Source: Aduncisulcus paluster (lineage: Eukaryota > Fornicata). From it: a stretch of DNA of 21,583 nt. Positions 1,595 through 21,583 of this stretch are shown here, piece after piece. The notes beneath the pieces are model-generated. The model was given only the letters and a program-made list of their open reading frames with translations, searched no databases and was not told the origin of the DNA. The translations under genes and the position numbers were made by a program. The DNA is taken from the NCBI GenBank assembly GCA_024181965.1, contig BQXS01010790.1, forward strand, positions 1-21,583, written 5' to 3'. Each line of letters begins with the position of its first letter. Position 1 is the stretch's first letter.

Positions 1595-4500
1595 ATGAAA
1601 TACTTGAAATTATTGAATGAAATCATCAAGTTTTTCAAAATAGTGTTTTTCTTTGTCATTATCCTTGATTTGATTTTTGAAATGGGAATTTTAGATAATG
1701 AAATAGATAGTTTTCTTGATTTGAGTCTGCTTGAACCTGAAACACAACAATATGAGACCCGAATCAAGCGATTAATCGTCGTTGGGAGGCTTCCCGCGGC
1801 TGAATTAGCTCGAGAAGTCATAAAAAAGTGTGAAGGGAAAGAACATATGGCGGCTTTTAAATGTATTGCCATTGTGTGTCGAATTTTGAGAGACGTTCTC
1901 CACATTGGAGGGCTTTCAAACACTTCAAGTGTTATCGCTGCAGTTATGTCAATATCGAATCAAAGGTTATCGGTATGTTGCATGATTTGGTCAATTCTAT
2001 CTTTTATATGTGATACTCTTATTTTTTACTTCTTTTTTATGTCTATATAGTACGATTTGGAAAGGAGAGAATTATTTGCTACTCTTATTGCTGCCTATAA
2101 GGTTGATAGTACAACATTATCTCCACGAGTCATGTATTCCCTAATTTCTAATAACAGCAAGAATAGTATGCTGAAAAATCTCTCAATTTCTCAGAGAAAA
2201 TTGATCTGGAGTATATTTATAAGTGGTTGTGTGGACAATGGTATCATTAGTGATGCCGAAAAACAATTTGTTTTGAAGAAAACAACTTGGGGCAAGGACC
2301 AAGAGTCTGCAAGAATCAGTAGAAAACATCGAATTTCTGAATTAACAAAAGGAACAAAGGCTTATTCTTCAATGGTTGCAAAAATGCATGTCACATCTGA
2401 TGTTCTTTGTGATATTTCGTACGGGGAAGATAATCCCATTTGTTTGTTATTTTTTTTACGTATGGCTCGCTTGGTATTCGAACAATTACCATTTGACGAT
2501 ATAAAGGTGATGTCTCTGGATGATAAACGCCGCTTTGAACGTGTTTTCAACTCATATTCCTGCTATTTCCCCATAACCTATCAGCCCTCTTCCTCTGATA
2601 TTAATGCGATCCAGCGTTCTGATTTGATATTGGATATTGCGAGTCTCTGGTTGTGCCATCCCTATCTCCTCAAGAAGGGACAGGAATACCTGTTGGAGGG
2701 AGTCGACTATTCCCTCAATGGTGAGCATGTAGTCCAGCTATTTATGATGATTTCTCTGTGCATCGAACAGCAATATAAGGAATCTAAGACAATATCTGAG
2801 GGGAGGGCTGAGGTTTTGATTGATTTGTTGGAGTCTTACGGAAGTGATGTTTGGTGGATGATTAGTGACCAACTTACAAGCTCATCCGCTTCATTTTCAA
2901 CAGATTCGGACATCAAAAACTCAGTTAACTTTGACATTTCATCTATCCTTTCATCGAAAACATCCATTTCTGCATTTTCCTCTTTGTTAACGCACTCACC
3001 GAGAACATGGGCATTGCTATGTCTTAAGCAACTTCTTGTGCATACCACCATGAAAGATAGACCAAAACTACGCAAACTAACCTCCTCTAGCATCGTTGAT
3101 GATGAGTTTAAGCTTGGAACTTCAACCGAACAGATGAGTCCTTACCATTCTTCCGTCTCATCCTCTTCCAATGGAGCATCTGGGCTGAGCGCATTCATCT
3201 CGGCATTCGTAGACCATGTAAGTCGGGAGTTTATCTTTGACGGTGACAATAGAGCTGCACGGGCCGCGTGTATTGATTGTGTTGTGTGTGTGGCTGCATC
3301 TCTCAGAGAAATCTGTGCTAACATTGAACCAGACATCGAGGGAACTGATCTGATGCTTAAGGATGCTATAAAAATACAGGAAATATCGACAGCCAGGAAG
3401 AAAAGAGGTGTTACACTTGAAATGGTATCCCAAGTAGCTCCTTTGATTGAGCTGTTTGCCCAATTGTGTGTTGACCTGGTTCAGAAAGTGGCATTCACAG
3501 CCGATAAGCTTGGTAAAGTGATATTCAAATATTCTACTCTGATTAAGGAAGGAAAAGAACCTAAAATTGTCGGTACATATCGCACTGATTTGGCAGTGTG
3601 GTTACAATCCCTTGTTCGAGCTATGAATATGCTTCCATCTATTAAAAAATACATATATTTGATGAAGAAACAAGTTGCTGGCACCGATATTCTCAAGGAA
3701 GACTCTGATTTCTCGTCTATTTTTGGACTTGTTGAGTTATTAATGAATGAGATGTCTACAATGGTTGAGAGGGTGTTGTATATGGAGCATTCTTTTGTGG
3801 ATGTGATGGGAACCAGTGTGGCATCTGGAATTGAACAAGATACCACACTGATTCGAACTCTTGAATGTTTCAATCGGTGTTGTTCTATTTTGTGCATAAT
3901 TCCCACCAATGACGCTTTAATTGGAAGGATCGAATGGTTTGTAGGACTTCTTGAGGGAGAAACTCTTAAAGATCTGAGTGAATTCACATCTGAAGATGAA
4001 AAGTCTCTTGTCTGTTCTCTTCCTTCTCTTTCTTGTGATGAATCTCTCGTTTCGATCCAAACATTACTTCCAGAATTTCTTTTACATGCTAAAATATCTC
4101 TTAATCCTACATCTAAATCGTTCACTGGACTTTCTATGCTTCCCTTGGTAGATGATCTCGAAAGAAACGCTCAGATCGGTAGAAAAACGATCGATGTTGT
4201 TATTCCTCACATATATGTTAACAAATCTCTCTGTGCTTCAATGTTTTTGTATTGTAATGCAAGCATTTCAGAGTATTTAATCATAAAGTTGTTGCATTTC
4301 GGATCAGGAGATTCTTTCTCGGATCTTTTGAATAATCTTGACCAGATGATGTCTATTTTTGGACATATTTTGACTTTTCTTGACTCTCAATCCCAACTCA
4401 AGAAGATTAATGATCTCTGTTCTTACGTGGAAGGATACTGTCTGCGATATGTTCACAAGTATGATTCTGCCTTTTTACGCACTTCCTCCCTTGACATTTC

Positions 4501-5665
4501 GACTCAAATCGATATTATTTCGTTCAGTTGTCTCCTTTTATGCTTTGTACCTTTCTTCCCTTCACTGTCGTCTCTCTGTTCTTCTCTTCTTCCCATTGTT
4601 CTCCACTGTCTGAAATCCAAGCATATATTGGTATATGCACCCGTTTCTCTCTTGTCTTTCCTTTTATTTGCAACTCTTAATGCTGAATCCTCCGGCAGTG
4701 AGACTCGGGGTCAGAAAAGGGAAGATATTGTTGTGGCTTCTGTATTGTCTCTTGTCGAGTCTCTGTCAAGTGTGTTTCCTTCTTCCTCACTGGCTCTCAT
4801 GATATTATCTGTTATCCATCTCTCAGATATATGTGGAATTGATGCGAGTTCGTTGTACTCCATATGTGATCGAATTGTGGAGCTTCTAAGTTCTTCTGAC
4901 AATGAAATCCTTGCAATCTCTCTATCTGAATACTTTCCAATCTCTTTCTCACCTTTTTGCTGCTACATTTGTGGGAGATTTATAGATATAGCCGAATTAA
5001 AGGTGGTGTCTTCTTCCTCTGGAAGTAAGGTTATTTTGAATAACATTGTCAGTTTGTTGTGTCTATTATTAGATCGGTGTGACGATGAATCTAGACAGAA
5101 GATGTGTGAAAGGAAGGAAGGAAGTTTGATTATTTTCCTCGAGTCCTATCTTGAATGTCCTCGAGAAGTATTACACACAAAAACACTAGAATTCGATACC
5201 ATTGACATTCGCACAAAAGTACTATCCCTTCTGAACCTGTTGTTTATGTCTGGAAGTCGGCAAGGTGCCTTATTGTTCCGCAAATTCATCCAGGAGGTCG
5301 TGTGTGATCTACTCAAAGTTGAACGAGGAATTCTATCCTTTGATGGGGAGATTTCAGTCGGGTGTTCTGAAGAAGATGTACAGATTGAACTGATTTGGGA
5401 TGAAGGAGACGAGGAAATAGTTGATATTGGTAAGGAATTGAGAGATAAGGAGTGGACTAGGATCTTAGAGGATGATAAAACCATAGATTTTTATAGGAAA
5501 TTACTATTAATATCGGAACAACAAGCTGTTGCACCTGTTCCTCTTCAATTTAAGCAAGCAGACAAACGTGAGGTCACATTTAGATTGTTGAAATGGTTAG
5601 ATGCCCCCATCAAAGTGCTTAGGAAGGCTGCAAGAGAGGCTAGAAATGCCTGGTTTAAGTTGTAA
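1595..5665 (+). CDS. MMS19-like HEAT-repeat protein of the cytosolic Fe-S cluster targeting complex (2 exons)
   Basis: Exons are 1595-1972 and 2051-5665, giving 1,330 residues. Two stretches match MMS19 as I know it. Around residues 296-340, SCYFPI is followed by a Pro-containing stretch, I-x-R-x-DLIL and LLEGVD, matching the family's SCYFPI/DLIL/VD segment. The last ~28 residues (LLKWLD...LRKAAREARNAWF) match its C-terminal LDD...VRKEA..AR.xWF end. The rest is helix-rich and weakly repetitive, as expected for HEAT/ARM solenoids. MMS19 with CIAO1 and CIAO2B hands Fe-S clusters to DNA polymerases, XPD-type helicases and other nuclear enzymes in the cytosol and nucleus. The protein is longer than the usual ~1,000 residues, with Ser-rich inserts near residues 400-520. 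The first 29 residues are a hydrophobic stretch foreign to the family; the in-frame ATG at 1682 may be the real start. Family call is by eye on divergent sequence. Confidence 0.76.
1973..2050 (+). other. Spliceosomal intron of the MMS19-like gene
   Basis: Seventy-eight bases with donor GTATGT, a T-rich second half and acceptor TCTATATAG. The exon 1 frame runs into a stop at 2048-2050. Joining TCG at 1972 to TAC at 2051 links two open frames in phase 0 and gives a continuous helical protein. Confidence 0.88.
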
Positions 5666-9502: not shown

Positions 9503-12500
9503 TCATATGCTCATAATAGATCCACGGTAACCTCCATACTTAACAAGCTGAGTCTTCACAATATCATCAATGGATGGACATTTCCACCCTTCTCCAATCT
9601 CTGGCAGTAAATGTTTGATGCTTTGCACTTTCTCACGAGCTTCATGTACACTCATACGTTTGTCAACATCAATTTGAGTTAAACCTGTGAAAACTTCATT
9701 CAAACATTCATGAACAGGTTGGAATTTACCTCCTTCAATGGTCTTCAAAGATCTAAACAAGGGAGATTGACTAAGTTTTGGAGCCAGATTCTTTTCCATT
9801 AGAACCATTAATATTCCTATAATCTTTAAATCAATCCTATCTTCAATGGGTTCTCTAACAACTTCTCTGAAGTTGGGCAATGAAACAAAAGGATGTTCAC
9901 ATATGAATAAAGCGAGAATCGACATTCCAAGAGAATATCCATCACTCTTCTGAGTTTGAGTTCCAGCTAAAAATGTTTCGTAAGAATTGTACACAAGAGT
10001 TCCACATATGGAGGCTTTTTGTTTCGAGGTTTCCTTTTTTTCTTTCTTTTCAAACTCAATGGGTTGAATCAAACCTGATTTGGTAGTTGTTGAAGATGAT
10101 ATGGAATCTAAGATCTGGGCCAATCCAAGATCAGAGAGAACAACAGTGCATTCTCTATGTTTGGGATCAACACGAACAAGGAAGTTGTCAGGTTTAATAT
10201 CTCGATGAGTAAGTTTTGGTTTGGCAGTGAACACATCATCGAGGCACTCAATCATTCCAACACACAAGGCACTCACTTTCACAGGGTTTAATGTCATGGG
10301 ATCAAAATGTTTGTGATCGTCACTATCTTCCTCTGAAGAAGAACATTCCTCTTCCTCTTCCTCTCCATCTTGAATACACCATTTCTTGGCAAATGAACTC
10401 ACACTGCCTCCAATACAAAATTCCATAAGGAATCCATATTCACCCTTCAAATCTGCAACAAGAAGATCAAGAATATACAAAGGACGAGGGATACGATTGA
10501 AACATTTGGGGTTATTAAATAACTTTCTTTGCACCTTAAATTCCTTGCGACATGTCTTGACAACCTTTTCATCAGCTTTCCGAAGCATCTTCTTCAGAAC
10601 ACAAGGAATGGGAATACCTTCAACTTCAACAAGAAGAACTTCACTAAATCCACCATGACCAATGATGCAGTGAGGTGTGATGGAGGAAGAGGAAGTGAGA
10701 GTGAAAGAGTCATGTTTGATAACATTAGAGACATTTTTCTTTCGCTGGGAGTTCTTCCCATCTTTCCCGTCCGATTCTTCTGAGGGAGTTTCTGATCCGC
10801 TATCATGAAGCGAACCAGGGAAGAAAGAAAGAAATTTTTCAATTCTTTCCTCAAACCTTTCCAACAATACTTTATGCATATATGTCGATTTCTTGATCTT
10901 TTCTTCACATTCAATCGTTGAAAGCCATGCATGGGCCTCTCGAGCTGAATTTAGATATGCACTAATAAATTCAGGTTTATCTAACAGAGAAATATACTCT
11001 TCAGATTTTAGTTGCATTCCAAGGTAATCAAACATTTCGAAGATAGCGATCAATAATTTGATATTTTCACAATGTTTAGAAATGTCATAGCTCGAATATG
11101 AGAATGAATGCTCACTTTTTGAGGAAATAAAATACATACATTTGAAAAATCTATCCAATTTCTCTCCAATCTGCTCTAGGGTCATATTCCCAGAATGGAA
11201 CATATTCTGCAATGTCTTCAAAAAACGTTGAAATATCCGAATAATTCTCGTAATTTCAAGTGGTCCATCAGAATAATGGAGTTCACGAAGAATTACACCT
11301 CTCCATTCATCCTCAGCAACAAAATTGCCCAATCCTTTCTCTTTCTTGTATCGATTCACCACAGCCTGAACTCCTGGATATGTAAGGTCGCATCCAACAC
11401 CGAGGAACATAATCGTATTCATCGGTTTCCTCAACGATTCAAGGAAATGATCAAAGTTCCTCCTCAATTCCGTTATAACATTTTTATCGGCTATTTTAAA
11501 ACTTTTAGAAGGATAAAATGGCATTCCATTGTGACCATTGAGTGTAACTGAGAACCGTTGATCTTTTGACTCACTTTCAGTTGGACCCACATTAATATAT
11601 TCCATGCAATATTTTGACAATTTCATTTCACTTGGATATTCCTTATATTCATCATATTCTGAGCCAGAAATGAGAATATTTCTCCATTTTGACACGTACA
11701 AATCACTCTCAACAACCATCTCTTCTTCGTTTATAAAAACATCGTCTCCCATTAATATTAGTTCGTCCACATTGATGTATTCCAGAAGCTTTGTTAAACT
11801 CGATATTTGCTCACCCATCGCATACGGGAACAGCTTTTCATCTTGTTGGGGAAGATGGATTCCAACCACGGTGACGCTTCCTATTTTTAGACTTGACATC
11901 TGAGTGAATCCTTTCTTTTTGGTGCTCTCATGGAAAATATCCCAAAATTGCTGGAAATGACAACTATGCTCAAAAGTCACAGATCTTATATTCGGGGCAA
12001 ACATCCAAACTGAGTCATCTCTATCGGGCAGTTCAGGCAAAGGTCCCCAAATTCCATATCCTCCAAGAAATCTTTTATCTAGACTTGAATCCCCATCTCC
12101 ATCTGCAGGTCTCAATAGAGTGACAAATGTTTCATATGCAGATTTATCCAATAGGGAGAGATTTGAAAGAGTGATGTGCTTAATCACAGAGTCACATAAC
12201 GGTTGAAGAGAGTGAGTCTTGGATTGTGATGTTATTCCTCCCCTTGGTCGCTTCCTCCTCGATCCAGTAAAGAAACAGCTCAGAAGAGGTGTATAGAACG
12301 AGGAAGATAGTGAAATGTGGGGGACCATATGACGACAATTCTCAAAAAGTATATAAATAGATTCAAGAACTGCATATATCGGTTCGAGAATAAGAAGATA
12401 TCTTTTTTTAGGAATAGGTTCAGAAATATCATCAACATGTAAAAAATGAATCAAATGCTCAAAATACCAAACAGATGAATACTCATTTGTAAAACAATAC

Positions 12501-15500
12501 GAGAAATTAGAAATATCAGGCAAAGAACTCGGATCTTTGCCTCTTTCTTCATGGAGAATCAACAGGGAGCATAATTGCAAATATCCAACAAGTTCAGAAA
12601 TAAAATGAATTAATACAGCAAATTTACGAGCTTTATGATAAAAAAACTTTCTAAACTCGGTTTGAGGACAAATTGAGTCCCTACACATGGCTTTCACAGC
12701 ACAACTTAAAGCTAAGAGGATATTTTGCAGACAAATATCAAGTGTTGGAAATGGGGATTTTTTCTGCTCAATCAAGCATGCAAAATATTGTCGTATTTTG
12801 ATTATTGATCTGTATTGAATAGCATGGTCCAAATTCGTATCGCTTGTCGAGAATGTGGACAACTTATAGAAATTACTCACACTATCATCAAATCTCTTGA
12901 ATAACCCAGAAAGAGATACGGAACCAGCTTGAGAAAAAGAAGAAACCCTTTCAAGTGGGGATCGAATCAGGGCTAAGAAATCAACTTCACTCACTTTAGT
13001 TTGGACTTTCTCACCCTCAAATTGTTCTATTTTATCAAGATTCTCAAAATTCTGGAAAATACGAGTTCCCACGGCTTGTCTCTGTGTCTCCAACGACCTC
13101 AAAATGATACTTGGATATGCATATGCAGAAATACCACACTCTCGAAAGTCGACCAAATCCTTCTTTCCTCGAGTTAATCTCTGATAGAGAATATATGGAG
13201 CAATCAAACAACTAGATCTTGACAAAATACCTCCATCTTGAGAATATTTGAATAAATTTGGATTATTCCTCAAAGATAGTCTATTAATAACCATTGGAAT
13301 CTCATCAAATCCTTTAATAAGTCCCAACGCAGCAAAATGATTGAGTTTGTTTTTTGTCAGAAAAATGACATATCCAATATTATCATCCTTTGAAAGAAGT
13401 TTCTTCAAAGAAACAATCAATTTAAACATTGTATTGACATATTTACCATCCTTGTCATTAAACTCTGTTGGGTATTTAATAGCTCCAGAGCCTGATTTCT
13501 TTGTTGAAATGCTATCATATTTTTGAGAATATCTGTATAATCGTTGTATTTTTGCAGATTCCACACGTCCTTCAATATTATTCATATCAAGTTTCAAAGA
13601 GATATAATTGACTTCCTTCTTCTTTTTTGCAGGAATGGGATTGGCTTGAATTCTATCCAATATCACAAAGAGATGGAAATCATCCATTTCAGCATCTTGA
13701 ATACATATGTCGTTCACACAACAATATCTGAACATCACACAGAGACTTAGAACAGAGAGTTTATGGGTTGAAGCATCATCTTCATCCCAAGTGACTCCTT
13801 TCCTTTCCTCGTCAAAAGAATAGAACTTTACATCCTTCTTCTCCTTTTTATCTTTGGAGAATGACGGTTTCTTAATTCCAATCACAGGCATCGTATCGTT
13901 TAACATAATAATGAGATAGAATAAAATGGAAAGAAGAACAGAAATTTCAAGCATATTCTTGGCGATTGTCTGGGTTACAAAGAGATAATCTCCAGGTGAT
14001 ATTGAGGGCAAAGGTCCAACCTTGGATGGGTCCGAATGGTAGAAGTCAAATAAAACGGACATCAGGCCAGGATCGTTTGCAGTAGATTGGGTATTTCCGC
14101 TCAAACTAAGAAGACTGTTCACAATATCTCTGACTGAAGAGTTAAATGTGCTCGATCTTTGAATTCTTTGTCCGATACCACGAATGATGGTATCTTGTGA
14201 TTCAAGATCATAAAAACAACGGACAAGTTGATAACGGGGTAAATTGGGAGAAATTTGCATGAAAATTCCAGTGTGAAGGTGGGAAATAGAATCAAACTTC
14301 TGCAAACGTTGAACAAATTCACGAAGAGAAGATATCTTGTTACTTTTTACAGTAGGAGGTTGACATAATAATCGAGATAATTGATAGAAATTCTGAGGGT
14401 ATTCATCTTCGGAGGCTAATTCCATTCCTTTTCCCAAAATAAGTCTTGTAGGATTTGAGAAAGTAAGAGTGGATAAAAATAGATGAGGCAAATCTGTAAT
14501 TTTTGATCTCAAATTTTTAGGAATTTCTGCCTTACTGTCAAAAGATTGTCGAAGAACTCCTTCTCTAATACGAGAATGTAAACAACTCATTTGCCACAAA
14601 GCTTGTATTGGGAATCGACAATCATGAGAAAAGAAAGCAGAAATCCAAAACACATTGACAAACACTTCCCAGAATTCAGCATTGAAGAAGGAAGATTTTG
14701 AAGAGTCTTTCAAACATACATTCCTGATATCAGTGCCAGTCCCCTGCACAAACAACCCATTAGAATCCATCCCACACTCTGAAGCACTAATGTTCGATGG
14801 AAGAATAACTTTTGGAAGTTTAGATTGCTGGAATAACAAAGAATGGAAATACCCTACGATCCTATCTACAAACAGAGCTTTATCACTGGATGATTCCATT
14901 GCTATTCGAACAAGATTATTCTCAGAAAGTTTCTCAATCCACATATCATGAAGAGGTTTTGCATCTCCCAGAGTCCATCCCCTAACAATATGACATCTAA
15001 ACAATCGAGTCAAAATCTTTGGTAAATTTGAGGAATAATAAGCGATGAGAGGAATTCTTTCAAGCACATCTGGACTAACCAATCGAAGTGAATCCATAAA
15101 TTCTTTAACAGGAGATGGACTTGTGAACAAGTCAGAAAATTCACACAAAAATTGAAAGGCCTTTTCATTCTCTTTTATCTTTGTTGATGGTTTAGTTCTA
15201 TACGCTACAATCTCAAAGGATGGAATCTTGTTTTGTTTTCTAAATAATTTTCTTTCATCTGTGGACAATGAAACCTTTGAATCTGGATATGCCAAAGATA
15301 TCTCAGGATTCTTTCTGAAATCCCAACATTTAAGAACCTCGGTCCATCGTTTATCATGTAAAATCCCTCCTAGTGTAAACTTGGCCTTTTTCCATTCCAA
15401 TTGAATATCACAGAGTACAGACGCTCTCTCATATAATGGACTTTTGATCCACGTTCTAATCTCATTGAGGGAATAAGATTTCATCAATTCAGAGGCTCCT

Positions 15501-18271
15501 GATAATACTTGCGCCTGTTTCGAACTCTGGGGGGCAGGAGGAGATTGATCATAAATAGAAGAGGTAAGCTCAGGGTTAATTGATAGAATAGTTCGCTTTT
15601 TAACTGAATTCGCATCCACGGAACCAATGTGAGATTCACTATCAAGATTTCGTGAAACCCTCACAGAATCGACATGATCGAAATTACACTTATGAATCAA
15701 ATATATAATAACTTGTGTCGATAAACATTCAAATGAATAATGTCCATATTTGAGAGAATATGCAAGAATAGTGAGAGCATCTGGGGAGTGGAACAAAGCC
15801 GTCATAAGAGAATGACCAGTACCAACAAAACAGAATTTGTGGGAGAAATGATGCAAGAATCGGAATAATTTGTTAGGGTCATCGATAATTGCCTGTAATC
15901 GCTTTCTATGCTCATCAATTCTTCTTTCGGAATCTTGAGGGTATTCAATTATAGATTTTTTTAAGATATATTCAATACATTCAACCAAATAAGCTCCCCC
16001 TGGGATAGAAACAAGTGGTACTGGACATATAGTCGGTATTGTCTCCCTCCCTTCAGCAACAGCATAGCATTCTTCAAGGTCAGATATAATGCCATCCCTG
16101 AATCGTTCATTGGATTTCCTCTCGGCCTCTCTCTTCGCTTCTTTCAACCCATTACAATGCTTCTTGATATATCCCATCTGAGGTTCTTCTGGTACCTTCT
16201 CAAGATGTGGAATCTCTTTATCACAATACCTCGTCCAGCACCTTGTATAATAATCTGTACATGAGAGGAATATATCGTGGGATACAGCTTCATAATCCAC
16301 TTCGGCGATGACTGGTTCTTCACTTTCTTCCCCTGGATCGAGGGGAAAAGATCCTTTCGTCAATATCAAGGGTTCATATAAGTTATCCCACATCCTCTTC
16401 TCTCTTATTTTCATTGAAGCCTGGTCAGCAACATCTACTTCGGCATAAAATCTATAATTAACCTCGTCTAAAGGATACAATATTGAGAATACAGCTATTT
16501 CAACACTTGGGAAATAAGACTGTCGAGGCATGCGTTTTGTATCCTCATTGATATTAATGATCAGAGGTGATGGTTGGAAGCTCCTTCTTGATGGGTATGG
16601 TTGGACATGGACCTCATTGAGAAGGTCATTCACAGCAAGAATATCAGCACAGAGTCTAGAGTAAAAACACATTGCGCAAGACCACATCTCTACAATATCT
16701 TGATGAGACTCGAAATATGGAAAATAAACAGGGGTCAAATAAAACTTTAAACCTTTGGGAACACCGTTCTCACTAAAAGTATGTGATTGGACGGCGTAAT
16801 CCTCACTGATAAATCTAGAAGGCTGACTTTTCTCGCTCTTCTGGGTTGCAGTTTTAATGGGACGATGTTTTAATAGCCATAAAAACCCCAAATCCTCAAG
16901 AGAAATATCAGTCACTTTAAATATATCAGTGATGCCCTTTCTTTTCTTGAGTATTCTTCTCTTTGTATCATTCCACATTAAACCAGTGATTCCATCCATC
17001 TTTCCGATACCTGAGCCATCCCAGTATGGATCAGCTTCGGCCATCATCCTTGCCATCCGAACCTTGAACATCTTGAAGAGGACAGAAAGGAAGCAAATAA
17101 GATGCTCCTGTTTTAAAACTTTTGATTTTTTGAGACATTCGTGTGAGACTGGCATGAAGAGAGGTGGTAGAATATAGAAGAAAGGGAAAGGACAGGAAGG
17201 TCTCTTTGGACAAGGAGATTGATCACCATCCATTGAAAAAGCAATGTACTCGTTGATATATTGCAGATGATCCCAATTCGCAGAAAGGATACCAAGCAAA
17301 CACTCCCTAATGGACCCATAGGCAACGGAACGGGAATGGGTCGAAAACACTTGATCGAGAGCTGCATAATCAGTGTGAATAAGCTCGGAATAAGGAACTT
17401 CTTCCAATGGAGATCCACAAATAGCATATCTACGGTTTCTGTACATTGTACATTGTTCCGGAATAAGAACCAATCCAAGATGATCCAGTCCTTCTTCTTT
17501 CGCATTAGGTATCTTCACCTCCTCAAACATTGAAAAATATGGGTATTTCGGTAGAAATGTTGATGGATGGGGAAAAGGGGCAGGCATTGGCACAAGATGA
17601 TTAATATCCTGATCGTAGAATGGCATTTCTGAGCCGACCATACCATTATGTCTTCCTCTCAAGAAGTCAAAATGTTTAGTTTTAGCAAACATGTGAATAA
17701 AACTTTTTTCGGTAATATGTGAGGACCAAATCTCAATGGGGGCCATAATTTGTGTCACTAAATGATGATCTTGTTTTTCAGCTGGAAAATACTGTTGAAA
17801 TTCAGTTATATAACCATATTCCGCATTAAATGAATGTATAGCATGTGCATTGTATATTGTAGGTCTTTGCATGATTACAGAAACGTCGCCACTAGGGATT
17901 TGAGTCAAATCCCATTTCTTTTGAAGTAAAGAATCAATTAATGATTGAAATCCGGGAAATATACCCGTTAAATCTTCTAAAGTTTCTTTAATTTTCTCAT
18001 GATCCTTATGGGTGCCAACACAACAAACCATTAATAATTGACATATTTGGGCGATGTGATATTGGCGATAAAAACTTCCAGAATAAATCTTACTATCCTT
18101 AGATTCAGCAAAATAATCTGGTATAGAACGAATACCATTCGCAGAGTTGAATTGTAGTACTTTCGATAATAGTATTAGGGATTTCTTTTTTTCAAGCTTT
18201 TCAATAGTAATATCTGGAGGATTATAACAAAAATTTAAGATCGCTCTATTCAATTTCTGCATAAGTTCCAT
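9503..18271 (-). CDS. Giant protein with C-terminal protein kinase domain (~2,920 residues)
   Basis: One uninterrupted frame encodes 2,922 residues from the first ATG (18271); it stays open upstream to about 18343, so an upstream exon is possible. The C-terminus is a protein kinase: Gly loop GHGGFSEV at 2538-2545, Lys2560 in VLKKM, an acidic/Ser insert at about 2634-2660, HRD at 2689-2691 with Asn2696, DLG (in place of DFG) at 2714-2716, a CGTLVYNSYE segment in place of the usual APE, then D-x-YSLG and a final Arg in DKRMS. All catalytic residues are present, so an active Ser/Thr-type kinase is likely. The ~2,500 residues before it are mixed helical, Leu/Ile/Phe-rich sequence with charged linkers (KKEKKD, KKKKEV) and no domain I recognise. 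There is no signal peptide and no clear membrane span apart from one hydrophobic stretch (MLEISVLLSILFYLIIML, near 13,910-13,960). Substrate and pathway are unknown. Confidence 0.93.
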   Translation of the reverse strand: MELMQKLNRAILNFCYNPPDITIEKLEKKKSLILLSKVLQFNSANGIRSIPDYFAESKDSKIYSGSFYRQYHIAQICQLLMVCCVGTHKDHEKIKETLEDLTGIFPGFQSLIDSLLQKKWDLTQIPSGDVSVIMQRPTIYNAHAIHSFNAEYGYITEFQQYFPAEKQDHHLVTQIMAPIEIWSSHITEKSFIHMFAKTKHFDFLRGRHNGMVGSEMPFYDQDINHLVPMPAPFPHPSTFLPKYPYFSMFEEVKIPNAKEEGLDHLGLVLIPEQCTMYRNRRYAICGSPLEEVPYSELIHTDYAALDQVFSTHSRSVAYGSIRECLLGILSANWDHLQYINEYIAFSMDGDQSPCPKRPSCPFPFFYILPPLFMPVSHECLKKSKVLKQEHLICFLSVLFKMFKVRMARMMAEADPYWDGSGIGKMDGITGLMWNDTKRRILKKRKGITDIFKVTDISLEDLGFLWLLKHRPIKTATQKSEKSQPSRFISEDYAVQSHTFSENGVPKGLKFYLTPVYFPYFESHQDIVEMWSCAMCFYSRLCADILAVNDLLNEVHVQPYPSRRSFQPSPLIININEDTKRMPRQSYFPSVEIAVFSILYPLDEVNYRFYAEVDVADQASMKIREKRMWDNLYEPLILTKGSFPLDPGEESEEPVIAEVDYEAVSHDIFLSCTDYYTRCWTRYCDKEIPHLEKVPEEPQMGYIKKHCNGLKEAKREAERKSNERFRDGIISDLEECYAVAEGRETIPTICPVPLVSIPGGAYLVECIEYILKKSIIEYPQDSERRIDEHRKRLQAIIDDPNKLFRFLHHFSHKFCFVGTGHSLMTALFHSPDALTILAYSLKYGHYSFECLSTQVIIYLIHKCNFDHVDSVRVSRNLDSESHIGSVDANSVKKRTILSINPELTSSIYDQSPPAPQSSKQAQVLSGASELMKSYSLNEIRTWIKSPLYERASVLCDIQLEWKKAKFTLGGILHDKRWTEVLKCWDFRKNPEISLAYPDSKVSLSTDERKLFRKQNKIPSFEIVAYRTKPSTKIKENEKAFQFLCEFSDLFTSPSPVKEFMDSLRLVSPDVLERIPLIAYYSSNLPKILTRLFRCHIVRGWTLGDAKPLHDMWIEKLSENNLVRIAMESSSDKALFVDRIVGYFHSLLFQQSKLPKVILPSNISASECGMDSNGLFVQGTGTDIRNVCLKDSSKSSFFNAEFWEVFVNVFWISAFFSHDCRFPIQALWQMSCLHSRIREGVLRQSFDSKAEIPKNLRSKITDLPHLFLSTLTFSNPTRLILGKGMELASEDEYPQNFYQLSRLLCQPPTVKSNKISSLREFVQRLQKFDSISHLHTGIFMQISPNLPRYQLVRCFYDLESQDTIIRGIGQRIQRSSTFNSSVRDIVNSLLSLSGNTQSTANDPGLMSVLFDFYHSDPSKVGPLPSISPGDYLFVTQTIAKNMLEISVLLSILFYLIIMLNDTMPVIGIKKPSFSKDKKEKKDVKFYSFDEERKGVTWDEDDASTHKLSVLSLCVMFRYCCVNDICIQDAEMDDFHLFVILDRIQANPIPAKKKKEVNYISLKLDMNNIEGRVESAKIQRLYRYSQKYDSISTKKSGSGAIKYPTEFNDKDGKYVNTMFKLIVSLKKLLSKDDNIGYVIFLTKNKLNHFAALGLIKGFDEIPMVINRLSLRNNPNLFKYSQDGGILSRSSCLIAPYILYQRLTRGKKDLVDFRECGISAYAYPSIILRSLETQRQAVGTRIFQNFENLDKIEQFEGEKVQTKVSEVDFLALIRSPLERVSSFSQAGSVSLSGLFKRFDDSVSNFYKLSTFSTSDTNLDHAIQYRSIIKIRQYFACLIEQKKSPFPTLDICLQNILLALSCAVKAMCRDSICPQTEFRKFFYHKARKFAVLIHFISELVGYLQLCSLLILHEERGKDPSSLPDISNFSYCFTNEYSSVWYFEHLIHFLHVDDISEPIPKKRYLLILEPIYAVLESIYILFENCRHMVPHISLSSSFYTPLLSCFFTGSRRKRPRGGITSQSKTHSLQPLCDSVIKHITLSNLSLLDKSAYETFVTLLRPADGDGDSSLDKRFLGGYGIWGPLPELPDRDDSVWMFAPNIRSVTFEHSCHFQQFWDIFHESTKKKGFTQMSSLKIGSVTVVGIHLPQQDEKLFPYAMGEQISSLTKLLEYINVDELILMGDDVFINEEEMVVESDLYVSKWRNILISGSEYDEYKEYPSEMKLSKYCMEYINVGPTESESKDQRFSVTLNGHNGMPFYPSKSFKIADKNVITELRRNFDHFLESLRKPMNTIMFLGVGCDLTYPGVQAVVNRYKKEKGLGNFVAEDEWRGVILRELHYSDGPLEITRIIRIFQRFLKTLQNMFHSGNMTLEQIGEKLDRFFKCMYFISSKSEHSFSYSSYDISKHCENIKLLIAIFEMFDYLGMQLKSEEYISLLDKPEFISAYLNSAREAHAWLSTIECEEKIKKSTYMHKVLLERFEERIEKFLSFFPGSLHDSGSETPSEESDGKDGKNSQRKKNVSNVIKHDSFTLTSSSSITPHCIIGHGGFSEVLLVEVEGIPIPCVLKKMLRKADEKVVKTCRKEFKVQRKLFNNPKCFNRIPRPLYILDLLVADLKGEYGFLMEFCIGGSVSSFAKKWCIQDGEEEEEECSSSEEDSDDHKHFDPMTLNPVKVSALCVGMIECLDDVFTAKPKLTHRDIKPDNFLVRVDPKHRECTVVLSDLGLAQILDSISSSTTTKSGLIQPIEFEKKEKKETSKQKASICGTLVYNSYETFLAGTQTQKSDGYSLGMSILALFICEHPFVSLPNFREVVREPIEDRIDLKIIGILMVLMEKNLAPKLSQSPLFRSLKTIEGGKFQPVHECLNEVFTGLTQIDVDKRMSVHEAREKVQSIKHLLPEIGEGWKCPSIDDIVKTQLVKYGGYRGSIMSI

Positions 18272-18319
18272 CAACCGTCGTTCAGAAAAGGTGGTGATTG
18301 TTTGTCCAACCCTCAGCAC

Positions 18320-18442
18320 ACTTGAAAGAAGAATTAAAAACTAATAATAAATGATTCAAGGAAAAAGTAAATAAAAATAATAATGATCTTTTATTTCAAT
18401 ACAAAATATGAATAGAGCCGGAAATATTTAAATTGTGTGTGA
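18320..18442. other. Short AT-rich gap between the kinase gene 5' end and retroelement sequence
   Basis: Composition changes from AT-rich to near-balanced at about 18440-18470. On the minus strand TCTTTCAAG just before the kinase frame could be a splice acceptor, and ACGGGTAAGG near 18450-18460 could be a donor, but I see no coding exon upstream. No target-site duplication can be checked because the other end of the element is outside the window. Confidence 0.4.
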
Positions 18443-19719
18443 TTAGAGGCCTTACCCGTTAGTAGAGAGCTGAAACAACGCGTATACTCAAATGTGGCAG
18501 ACCGTTACCTTGCTACCGCTGAGGATTTGTTTATCCCAGCAAGAGGAGTCCCCCAAGGCAACCCCCTGAGTCCTCTTGAGTTCTCCTATGGCATAAATGA
18601 CCCCCTGAAGGAGGCTGGCAAGCTGGTAGGTAACTGGAAGTACAAAGGCAGCTGGAAACACGAGGATACAGAGCACAAGTTTGAGTTAAACATCCCGAAA
18701 GTCACTGCATACCTGGACGACATTGCTGTTACTGCGTCTTCCCTCGAGGAACTCCACGAAGTCTTCACCCTCCTGCGGGAAAGGATGGCAGACATCGGTC
18801 TCCACTTCAATCCGGAAAAATGCAAGGTCCTGCATCTGCACAAGTATGGCCCGGCAGCACCAAGGCAGCTGGAAGGAGCGAAGTTTGTCACATGTGCCAA
18901 GCTGATGGGAGTATGGATCAGTGAAACGGATGAGGAAGCGGATGAGATGATGCAGAAGTTGTTTGAGCAGAACCTCAAAGAAACCAAGAAGCTCAAGAAA
19001 ATGCTGGGCCTGGAACATTTCTATGTATACCTCAGGAACTCTATTCTCAAAAGAGAGGCATATGCAAGGGAGAACACACCGGTGAACTGGGAGGAAGTGA
19101 AGAAGCATGACGCGGAGTATAGTACAATCATTGCAGAAGCGTTTGAATTACACAATTTGCCGAAGTCTCAGATTCCCCTGGCCGTCAATCAAGGAGGTTT
19201 GGTTTGCAGCGTTCCATCTCAACACACAGTGGCGGGCACCAGGAGAGCGGTGCGACGAGTTCTCCTGAACAAACAGGGCTGGATAAAAGGATCAGTGCCT
19301 GCATTCCTGATGACCATCGATGATAAGGCGAGACAACAGATGAAGTCCTTGAGAGAGCGCCTGGAACTTGACTTGGAAACAACCAAGAAGTCAATCACCA
19401 AATCAGTCGAAGCGATAGCCGAAGGTCTCAGGAAAAACCAAGCTGCCTTGAGAAAGGACACAGAGGAAACTTTGACGGCCATCATGGAGAGTGAACATGC
19501 GACGGACGAACAGAAAGAATCGGCGAAAACCCAATTGATCACTCTGAGAGGTAACGCGACGAAAAGGAATGTGATGAACTATCTGCTGCTCAAACACCCT
19601 TTTGTGGGAGACAGGACGGAGCCAGTGACAGCAGAAAGGTGGGCAGTTTTCCTTAGTGGTCTGGCTTCCCATTTTGGTACCAAGATATCCGGAACACCTG
19701 ACAGCTCAACATTGACGGA
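18443..19719 (+). pseudogene. 5'-truncated LINE reverse transcriptase (RT1), frameshifted before its zinc knuckle
   Basis: The frame opens after a TGA at 18440-18442. It carries RT motif B (GVPQGNPLSP), the catalytic YLDD at 18710-18721, then thumb-like sequence and a long charged helical region (LRERLELDLE...). The palm motif A (the first catalytic Asp) and the fingers are missing, so this copy cannot be an active polymerase. Clear RT sequence starts around ELKQRVYSNVADRYL. The same frame stays open to 19825, but its last ~35 codons are out of frame with the family: the zinc knuckle that should follow lies in the -1 frame from about 19702. The 5' truncation is typical of incomplete target-primed reverse transcription. 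It lies ~170 bp upstream of the giant kinase gene, in the opposite orientation. Confidence 0.86.
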
Positions 19720-20640
19720 ACATGTCCAAACTGTGGAAAAGAGGTCGAAAACAACAAGAAGGATCATTTTAGAAACTGTAAATGGTCAGCCAAAGGAAGA
19801 CAAGTCGGGCATGATGCAATGGTGAGATGTGTCAAAGAAAGTCTCAGGAAGGTGAAAGGATTGAAAGTGGCGGCTGAGAGCAACTTCTATACCAAAAACA
19901 TGGGATACAAGCCAGACGTGTTAGTATATGCTCCAGATGAGTCAACCGGTGTCCAGGGTATTGATGTGGTGATACGGGACATGGCGTACACTCGATCAAG
20001 CCAAATCAGCATCACAAGGAGAGCCGAAGCAGAAAAGATGAAGAAGAAGCAGGAGAAAGGAATCGCTAGAGCAATCGAACAGGGTGTCAACCCGAGTGTA
20101 ACCATCCAATCCCAGTTAGAAACAGTATTCTACACCACTTCAGATAAAGGCTACTGCCACCAATCAACACCCTCACCCCCCCCTCCAATTCTGCTGACTC
20201 CACCCGCCCTCATCTCTGGCCCAAACCCCAGTGTTGCTTCAACGTCAACCCCCCACAATACCCAAACACCAAAGAAAAGGGGAAGAAAGAAGAAACGGAT
20301 AAGATGTGACTTATCACAAGAAGACATTGAAACAACACAATCCAAAAACCGGCCCACCAGGAATAAGCTCCCCTCCATCATTGAGCAGAAGGATAAAGAA
20401 AACTCCAAATTCCTCAAAACAGCAAGGAAAAGGCGAAAACCCAAACCTCCCTTGCAGGAAATCTTAGAGGATAAGCCTGCTGAAGAGATGGCCGCGATGA
20501 TCCCGATCCCCCCCTCCGTTCCTAGGAATATTCGATCATTTTCCCGTGGTGTAATACCTGTTTCAAAACGCCGGACAATCTCCGTATCCCCGGATTTGGT
20601 CCAAACCTCAGACCAAGAGACAGAACCGACAACCCCTTCA
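19702..20640 (+). CDS. LINE CCHC zinc knuckle and restriction-like endonuclease, with Pro/Lys-rich linker
   Basis: The frame opens after a TGA at 19699-19701 and has no stop to the window edge. It begins NIDGTCPNCGK: a C-x2-C-x10-H-x3-C knuckle at 19723-19779, then GRQVGHDAMVRC, which resembles the family's R-H-N segment. KPDVLV at 19909-19926 and IDVVIRD at 19960-19980 supply the PD...D catalytic pattern, and Lys-rich AEKMKKKQEK follows. In R2-like LINEs this endonuclease nicks the target DNA to prime reverse transcription. The domain seems to fade near 20160 (TTSDKGYC). From there to about 20640 runs a linker rich in Pro, Ser, Thr, Lys and Arg, including a basic KKRGRKKKR stretch that could be a nuclear signal or nucleic-acid contact. 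No start codon context is visible; it was presumably once in frame with RT1. Reading continues into RT2. Confidence 0.82.
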
Positions 20641-21583
20641 AAGAAACGATCTCTTGCTCTTCTTGACTTCTCAAATGCCTTCAACAGTGTGTCCGTGGAG
20701 GCAGTTTTGGCAGCTGTTAACCGTCTCAAAGTCTCATCCACAATTAAAAATGCTTTGCTAACTTATCTGCAGAGCATTCAAATCGTTCATGATGGTAAGG
20801 CCTTTGCCCTGTTGCGTGGTCTTTGCCAAGGTGATGCTCTTTCCTCGTTACTCTTTGCCGTCATTATCCATCATCTTGTTGAGAAGCTTCATAAGGATTG
20901 GGGTATGTTGAAGCTAAAAACCAACGAGAGTGTGGAGGATTCCCCAACTATTGTGGAATTGCCACGCACGACATCTTATTTGGACGACATTTCTGTCATT
21001 GTGGACTCAGAAGATGACTATAAAAAGCTTCTCAGTTTTGTTGAAGTGAATGCCATACAGTTTGGTCTTGAGCTTAATGCTGACAAGTCCAAATGTCTCC
21101 CACTTCACAAAACCCCCGGCGTTGAGCACATTGTTAAATTTATGGGAATCTCGCTGTCCAATTGTGACAAACTGATGCGCAGGGCAGCTAAAGATGAACT
21201 GAATGATATCCATGCTAATGCCATCAAGGGCAAGAAAGGCTTTGACCTCCAGAACTTCCTTGAAGTAATGAGGACGGTCGTTCTTCCCAGATACTCTCAT
21301 CAAGTCTTGTTCGCCCCTGTGAAGGAGAGCTTCCTTAAGAATCTTGATAAAGGAATAGCCTCTCTTTTCAAGGACATGATTGAAATACCTGTGGTCTCTA
21401 CCACCAGGATGTCCTTACCTTTCAAACATGCTGGCCTCAATATGAAGCTGCCTGGTGCTGACTTGCTCAGGATCAGATTGATTGGTCTGGCTCACTTCAT
21501 CAATGACACAAGACACATCTTCCCCCAGGGTGCAGGGGCCTTCTTGAAGGATGTTGCAGAAGACTCTCCTTATTTCCTTCGTG
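20641..21583 (+). CDS. Second LINE reverse transcriptase (RT2), starting at motif A, cut by the window edge
   Basis: This part continues the endonuclease/linker frame with no stop. It begins KKRSLALLDFSNAFNSV, which is RT motif A with its catalytic Asp, and continues with motif B as GLCQGDALSSLLF and motif C as SYLDDISV (YLDD at 20977-20988). GLELNADKSKC follows (compare GL.LN..KC in the family), then thumb-like sequence to the edge. The finger motifs that normally precede motif A by over 100 residues are absent; the upstream sequence is low-complexity linker. RT2 differs clearly from RT1 in every motif, so it is not a duplicate but a different LINE lineage. Without fingers it should not be an active polymerase, unless an unusual architecture supplies them elsewhere. 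Confidence 0.86.

Follow-up and report, generated by a model that had tools for sequence, protein, structure and literature searches.

Two truncated R2-like LINE remnants, very probably a mosaic joined in frame, at a contig end of Aduncisulcus paluster

Results

Organization of the locus

The window, by which we mean the whole stretch of 21,583 nucleotides that was analysed, is contig C82 of the draft searched here (7.09 Mb, 397 contigs). Its G+C content is 38.4%, and its genes are of eukaryotic kind, with frames of the MMS19 type and of kinases recognized by Pfam. The published A. paluster genome has a G+C content of 39.1%, a highly fragmented draft of 25,863 contigs and numerous introns (11,743, Table 1; PMC9933649). 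To the left of the feature described below, the minus strand has a frame of 2945 aa (9503-18340) whose kinase domain lies close to its end. By eye, frames resembling this one are found in contigs C265, C285 and C217 (L030, L031, L032), and the same contigs bear remnants of reverse transcriptases (RTs) or endonucleases. Rfam gave no match at the gathering score, and none of 29 pattern matches in the viral contigs was confirmed.

The feature itself occupies 18443-21583 and shows the order RT1, CCHC/PD-D endonuclease, a linker of about 0.5 kb and RT2. This arrangement had been proposed in the first-pass annotation and is borne out by the open reading frames and by Pfam matches to RVT_1. The annotation had also spoken of "almost" one open frame, and the qualifier was well chosen, as RT1 is encoded in a different frame from the one shared by endonuclease, linker and RT2. 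No stop interrupts the shared frame between 19702 and the contig end at 21583 (627 aa), in keeping with the claim of more than 1.8 kb without a stop. Both RTs are indeed dissimilar, with 26% identity across their common stretch and 25% in a second comparison. Five matches were obtained with NCBIfam, to RTs of group II introns, Drt or retrons, each of them below the cut-off. In the following, the part that carries RT1 is called LINE-A and the part that carries RT2 is called LINE-B.

LINE-A carries a truncated RT, a zinc knuckle and an endonuclease

RT1 lies in a plus-strand frame of 460 aa from stop to stop (18443-19825), and its match to RVT_1 (E 2.8e-12) covers only positions 110-194 of the 205 positions of the profile. 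Alignment to RT2 and to the RTs of C265 and C285 places its beginning just past motif A, with the fingers and motif A itself absent. GVPQGNPLSP, YLDD, the thumb and a helical stretch are contained in the frame. Between 19702 and 19825 (plus strand) the RT1 frame overlaps with the following one, and LINE-A changes frame there at the CCHC knuckle. LINE-A has no single complete open frame with an N-terminal DNA-binding part: this copy is a remnant, 5'-truncated after motif A, frame-broken and non-working. Elsewhere in the genome, C265 has a fingers-like sequence (KVVIIPKPGRPGKFRPVT, by eye) farther upstream in a shifted frame, and C31 holds small LINE-A pieces with 77-86% identity in short stretches.

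Compared alone with solved structures, RT1 found no R2 protein; its only hits were a group II maturase at E 0.007 and one chance match. The best matches of profile A2, which combines five RTs of this genome with RT1 as one row, were R2 proteins of solved structure (E 1.1e-16). Together with the Pfam match, this profile indicates an RT domain of the LINE/R2 type in the LINE-A remnant.

RT1 is followed by a CCHC-like zinc knuckle and a restriction-like (PD-D) endonuclease at 19723-20163 (plus strand), for which homology supports 19723-20055 and the remainder was assigned by eye. No Pfam family matched the endonuclease. When it was aligned locally with the C-terminal 330 residues of nine LINE-like database proteins, two showed similarity, P0007 with z 7.5 (window 19732-20055) and P0005 with z 3.9 (19723-20055), in both cases with knuckle and PD-D included. 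For the other seven, z ranged from 3.3 to -0.7; two of these, P0012 and P0019, are LINEs with a different type of endonuclease. A search of PDB sequences with the endonuclease alone returned three matches at chance level and no R2 protein. Both the order of the open frames and the alignments place the knuckle and then the PD-D endonuclease C-terminal to the RT in LINE-A. Counted in the translation, the knuckle has the spacing CX2CX10HX3C and does not fit the pattern CX2-3CX7-8HX4C that is given for RLE LINEs (PMC5678591). The database relative P0005 deviates as well, and the spacing is therefore treated here as variable and not as defining.

To the right, LINE-A DNA reaches at least position 20133, where the match to a 68-bp copy of window 20066-20133 in C244 (98.5% identity) ends. 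We considered 20133 as an element boundary and rejected it: the C244 fragment is cut on both sides and shows no clear flanking repeat, and its end need not be that of the element. This copy (L028:7697-7764) is a lone fragment of the LINE-A endonuclease between open frames with no clear flanking repeats, and the same contig contains a 43-nt imperfect inverted repeat at L028:7907-7999, with the word AATAAAGTTTATT occurring twice. A genome search with endonuclease and linker recovered the window itself, C244 and two weak matches. The first, in C217 (E 0.02), concerns the endonuclease part; the second, in C255 (E 0.04), concerns a stretch including the start of the linker and a long frame that appears coiled-coil-like by eye. 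Inspection of C217 revealed two stretches that by eye resemble further endonuclease remnants with CCHC-type motifs, arranged tail to tail (L032:2822-3839 on the plus and 4210-5430 on the minus strand), one of which includes a long low-complexity part.

LINE-B starts at motif A and has linker-free relatives

RT2 extends from 20650 to 21583 on the plus strand. Pfam and the comparison with C263 and P0002 show that it begins with motif A (SLALLDFSNAF) and contains YLDD, with the fingers absent. The RVT_1 match (E 8.4e-17, profile positions 64-203 of 205) identifies an RT domain of the LINE/R2 type also for the LINE-B remnant. Among solved structures, RT2 matched 8gh6_A, labelled 'Reverse transcriptase-like protein' (E 7.5e-4), and, only weakly, the R2 proteins 9nl3_A (E 0.44) and 9dou_A (E 0.76); we take chain 8gh6_A to be R2 of Bombyx mori. 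The contig ends inside RT2, and among the LINE-B copies found none extends further in the 3' direction. Based on the endonuclease alignments and on the RT profile that finds R2 proteins, we call LINE-A and LINE-B remnants of R2-like RLE LINEs.

Single-sequence protein searches, at E <= 0.001 and likewise at E <= 10, found only the gene model of the window itself. With a profile built from the 627-aa window frame, RT1 and the RT frames of C265, C263 and C285, 20 proteins scored E <= 1, among them the window's own; the best of the others were two partial A. paluster proteins. Each of these protein searches scored roughly 8000 candidates that share most words with the query. The two partial proteins, P0002 (ADUPG1_005370) and P0003 (ADUPG1_003551), stem from contigs of 766 and 485 bases and are 94% and 89% identical to RT2 over 132 and 44 aa, respectively. 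In both, the RT fingers (FLPKKAPGT) continue through REGKEMF into LALLDFSNAFNSV, and the linker occupies that place in the window. P0002 reads ...FLPKKAPGTFRPVVPGEG...REGKEMFLALLDFSNAFNSV..., with the fingers leading directly into motif A, whereas the window reads ...TTPSKKRSLALLDFSNAFNSV... across the junction. Apart from GTVRPVV and one other residue, P0003 equals P0002 in the shared part; the two may be two versions of one locus, which would lower the number of independent copies.

A third copy is located in C263, with 93% DNA identity over 445 bp. It reads SREGKEMFLALHDFSNAF, including REGKEMF, and has about eight normal RT codons upstream before intergenic DNA follows. The linker is absent from all three other RT2 copies that cross the junction (P0002, P0003 and C263). 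The first-pass annotation had asked for separate elements with an end at about 20640; the copies that cross this position in linker-free form speak in favour of a mosaic. The 143 codons common to the window and C263 differ at 23 positions (10 silent, 13 amino-acid changing). We do not use these differences as evidence for decay of LINE-B, since they fit weak constraint as well as neutral drift.

The C263 copy (L026:3541-4020) is an internal LINE-B fragment of 454 bp that is cut at both ends and flanked by a 13-nt direct repeat with 12 of 13 positions identical (AGTTTAGAAGTTC and AGTCTAGAAGTTC; score 10, while the best of 200 shuffles scored 9). It looks like an internal piece of RNA that was inserted with target-site duplication and offers a clear case of an internal LINE fragment between the two copies of an apparent target-site duplication. 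A mild argument against a mosaic is that the LINE-B copies of the window and of C263 begin at nearly the same place, no more than about 21 bp apart, which would have to be a coincidence.

The linker is a single-copy stretch and likely the tail of LINE-A

Similarity to other LINE-B copies sets in at 20632-20652 (plus strand), which defines the junction between linker and LINE-B. In the DNA comparison with C263 the match is clear from 20652 on, with a blurred zone that reaches back as far as 20640. At the protein level, the BLASTP alignment with P0002 begins at about 20638, and the protein search of the genome extends to 20632. The linker upstream of it (20164-20649, plus strand) is rich in Pro, Ser and Thr, stop-free in the shared frame and, judged by eye, does contain the basic patch that had been described before. 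A second copy was not detected in the 7.1-Mb genome, neither by DNA nor by protein at E <= 1.

Under a first-order Markov model based on the composition of the stretch itself, the chance of 20134-20639 being open in this frame is 0.0026, and in any of the plus-strand frames 0.01. Two possible identities of the linker were tried. We reject divergent fingers of RT2, as the linker resembles the fingers of C265 and C285 no better than shuffled sequence does (p 0.31 and 0.13); as a positive control, the fingers regions of C265 and C285 resemble each other (p 0.002). A tail of the same kind as in the endonuclease-like frame of C217 is not supported either (p 0.58).

When codon usage is modelled with RT1 and RT2 as training sequences, the switch from LINE-A to LINE-B falls at 20649, in agreement with the break in homology. 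For the linker (20134-20649) the score is +8.6 nats in favour of LINE-A, and other training sets give +10.5 for 20164-20646 with a bootstrap probability of no preference of 0.02. The same test in the two wrong frames yields +15.0 and +5.6, so that the signal reflects base composition as much as coding, which weakens the argument from codon usage for a linker encoded by LINE-A. Free composition models place their change points elsewhere, namely at 20497 (one), at 20101 and 20449 (two) or at 20155, 20263 and 20443 (three). Given the preference in wrong frames and these composition breaks, we regard the linker as the tail of LINE-A with a modest degree of confidence only: likely, and not beyond that. 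If this assignment is correct, the open frame needs only a one-in-three agreement of frames, whereas a third, non-coding sequence in this place would have a chance of about 0.003 of staying open.

Origin of the composite locus

The database contains a gene model of 1019 aa (P0001) that spans both LINE remnants (window 18443-21583). It joins the RT1 frame to the endonuclease by placing an intron at about 19744 to 19801, which removes the zinc knuckle. Although an intron as such is conceivable given the many introns of A. paluster, this one is unlikely to be right, because RLE LINEs are said to show high conservation of the knuckle at this position (PMC5678591), and P0001 is probably an annotation artefact.

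The idea of a real element or gene that encodes a fused RT1-endonuclease-linker-RT2 protein, with the two RTs as a built-in pair, draws on this model uniting all parts, on the 627-aa frame over endonuclease, linker and RT2 and on the low chance probability of the stop-free linker (0.0026), but is contradicted by the parts themselves. RT1 is devoid of motif A and fingers and RT2 of its fingers, which leaves both too incomplete for activity. The model bridges the differing frames of RT1 and endonuclease only at the cost of the knuckle, and the linker is missing in P0002, P0003 and C263. Recurrence of the endonuclease-linker-RT2 order, named in the first-pass annotation as the mark of a real element, was checked as well: we found one locus in the genome, a lower bound because the genome searches score the best candidates only. 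Owing to this single occurrence and the linker-free copies, we reject the fused two-RT element, which appears very improbable. The same low credence applies to a chimeric protein, host-captured or element-derived, in which the RLE endonuclease with its basic tail would be fused in frame to the RT palm of a second LINE and expressed here. Such a chimera, if real, could for instance pair with the proteins of active LINEs and have a dominant-negative effect on them.

Of the two readings in the first-pass annotation, the mosaic, which it called the simpler one, finds support and the fused protein does not. Region 18443-21583 is very probably a mosaic of two dead, 5'-truncated R2-like RLE LINEs that are joined in frame. 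LINE-A would contribute RT1 from just past motif A together with knuckle and endonuclease, and probably also the linker as its tail; LINE-B would contribute RT2 from motif A onward. Target-primed reverse transcription commonly yields 5'-truncated LINE copies, and each of the two copies may have arrived by this route. The tail of LINE-A would then have received LINE-B by insertion or been template-joined to it; the shared frame would be a one-in-three accident for which a fused protein is unnecessary. In line with a mosaic, a scan of ten longer relatives, picked by length from the 17 hits other than self, P0002 and P0003, showed one RVT_1 stretch per protein in every case. The stop-free linker (chance 0.0026) counts against it, since an accident of this kind is plausible only if the linker itself is LINE-A coding sequence. 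No target-site duplication was detected between the left edge of LINE-A and 20100-20700 (best score 6, shuffled median 7), and the right edges lie off the contig.

A one-event variant of the mosaic, and not an alternative to it, is a template jump, in which the RT switched from LINE-B RNA to LINE-A RNA during synthesis. Both parts have the same orientation, and chimeric retrogenes that were made in this way are described in a fungus (PMC2104539). The jump would have to link internal parts of both RNAs and not the end of one RNA, and we consider it unlikely.

An artificial join between fragments of two unrelated LINEs, at 20640 or close to it, would suit a fragmented draft of 397 contigs with low-copy repeats at a contig end, as does a contig that stops inside RT2, and the published draft is split into 25,863 contigs (PMC9933649). 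Nevertheless, a false overlap requires sequence that is shared across the junction, and a DNA search with 20100-20700 found nothing elsewhere common to both of its sides. This absence counts against an assembly join, although it is a weak point, and we rate such an artefact as quite improbable.

Discussion

Reading the locus as a mosaic of two LINE remnants removes a tempting but false architecture and flags P0001 as a model that would suggest it. The remaining value lies in the indication that a little-studied fornicate flagellate has two or more R2-like LINE families of low copy number. Our literature search found no paper that pairs 'Aduncisulcus' with 'retrotransposon'. In total, the genome gave 31 RT matches, and 20 of 30 loci were looked at by script. 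Most of the RT frames among these appear Ty3/gypsy-like, judged by eye and by their motifs, and L033, L035, L036, L039 and L040 contain long frames that resemble polyproteins of the Ty3/gypsy type by eye. L055 (C214) has a frame of more than 1000 aa with GVPQGASISS and YVDDY, which by eye resembles telomerase reverse transcriptase.

With the RLE LINEs of the R2 group, LINE-A shares the order of RT, CCHC-type knuckle and PD-D endonuclease. It differs from them in that the copy of the window is truncated and frame-broken and in that its knuckle has the spacing CX2CX10HX3C; if the linker is its own, its tail is also long and of low complexity. The LINE family of ADUPG1_005370 and ADUPG1_003551 is closely similar to RT2 (94% and 89%), yet has kept its fingers and does not contain the linker. 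Chimeric retrogenes formed by template jumps and nested 5'-truncated LINEs likewise consist of unrelated retroelement pieces that are joined in one orientation; here, in contrast to these, the frame happens to stay open across the join and the right border is missing.
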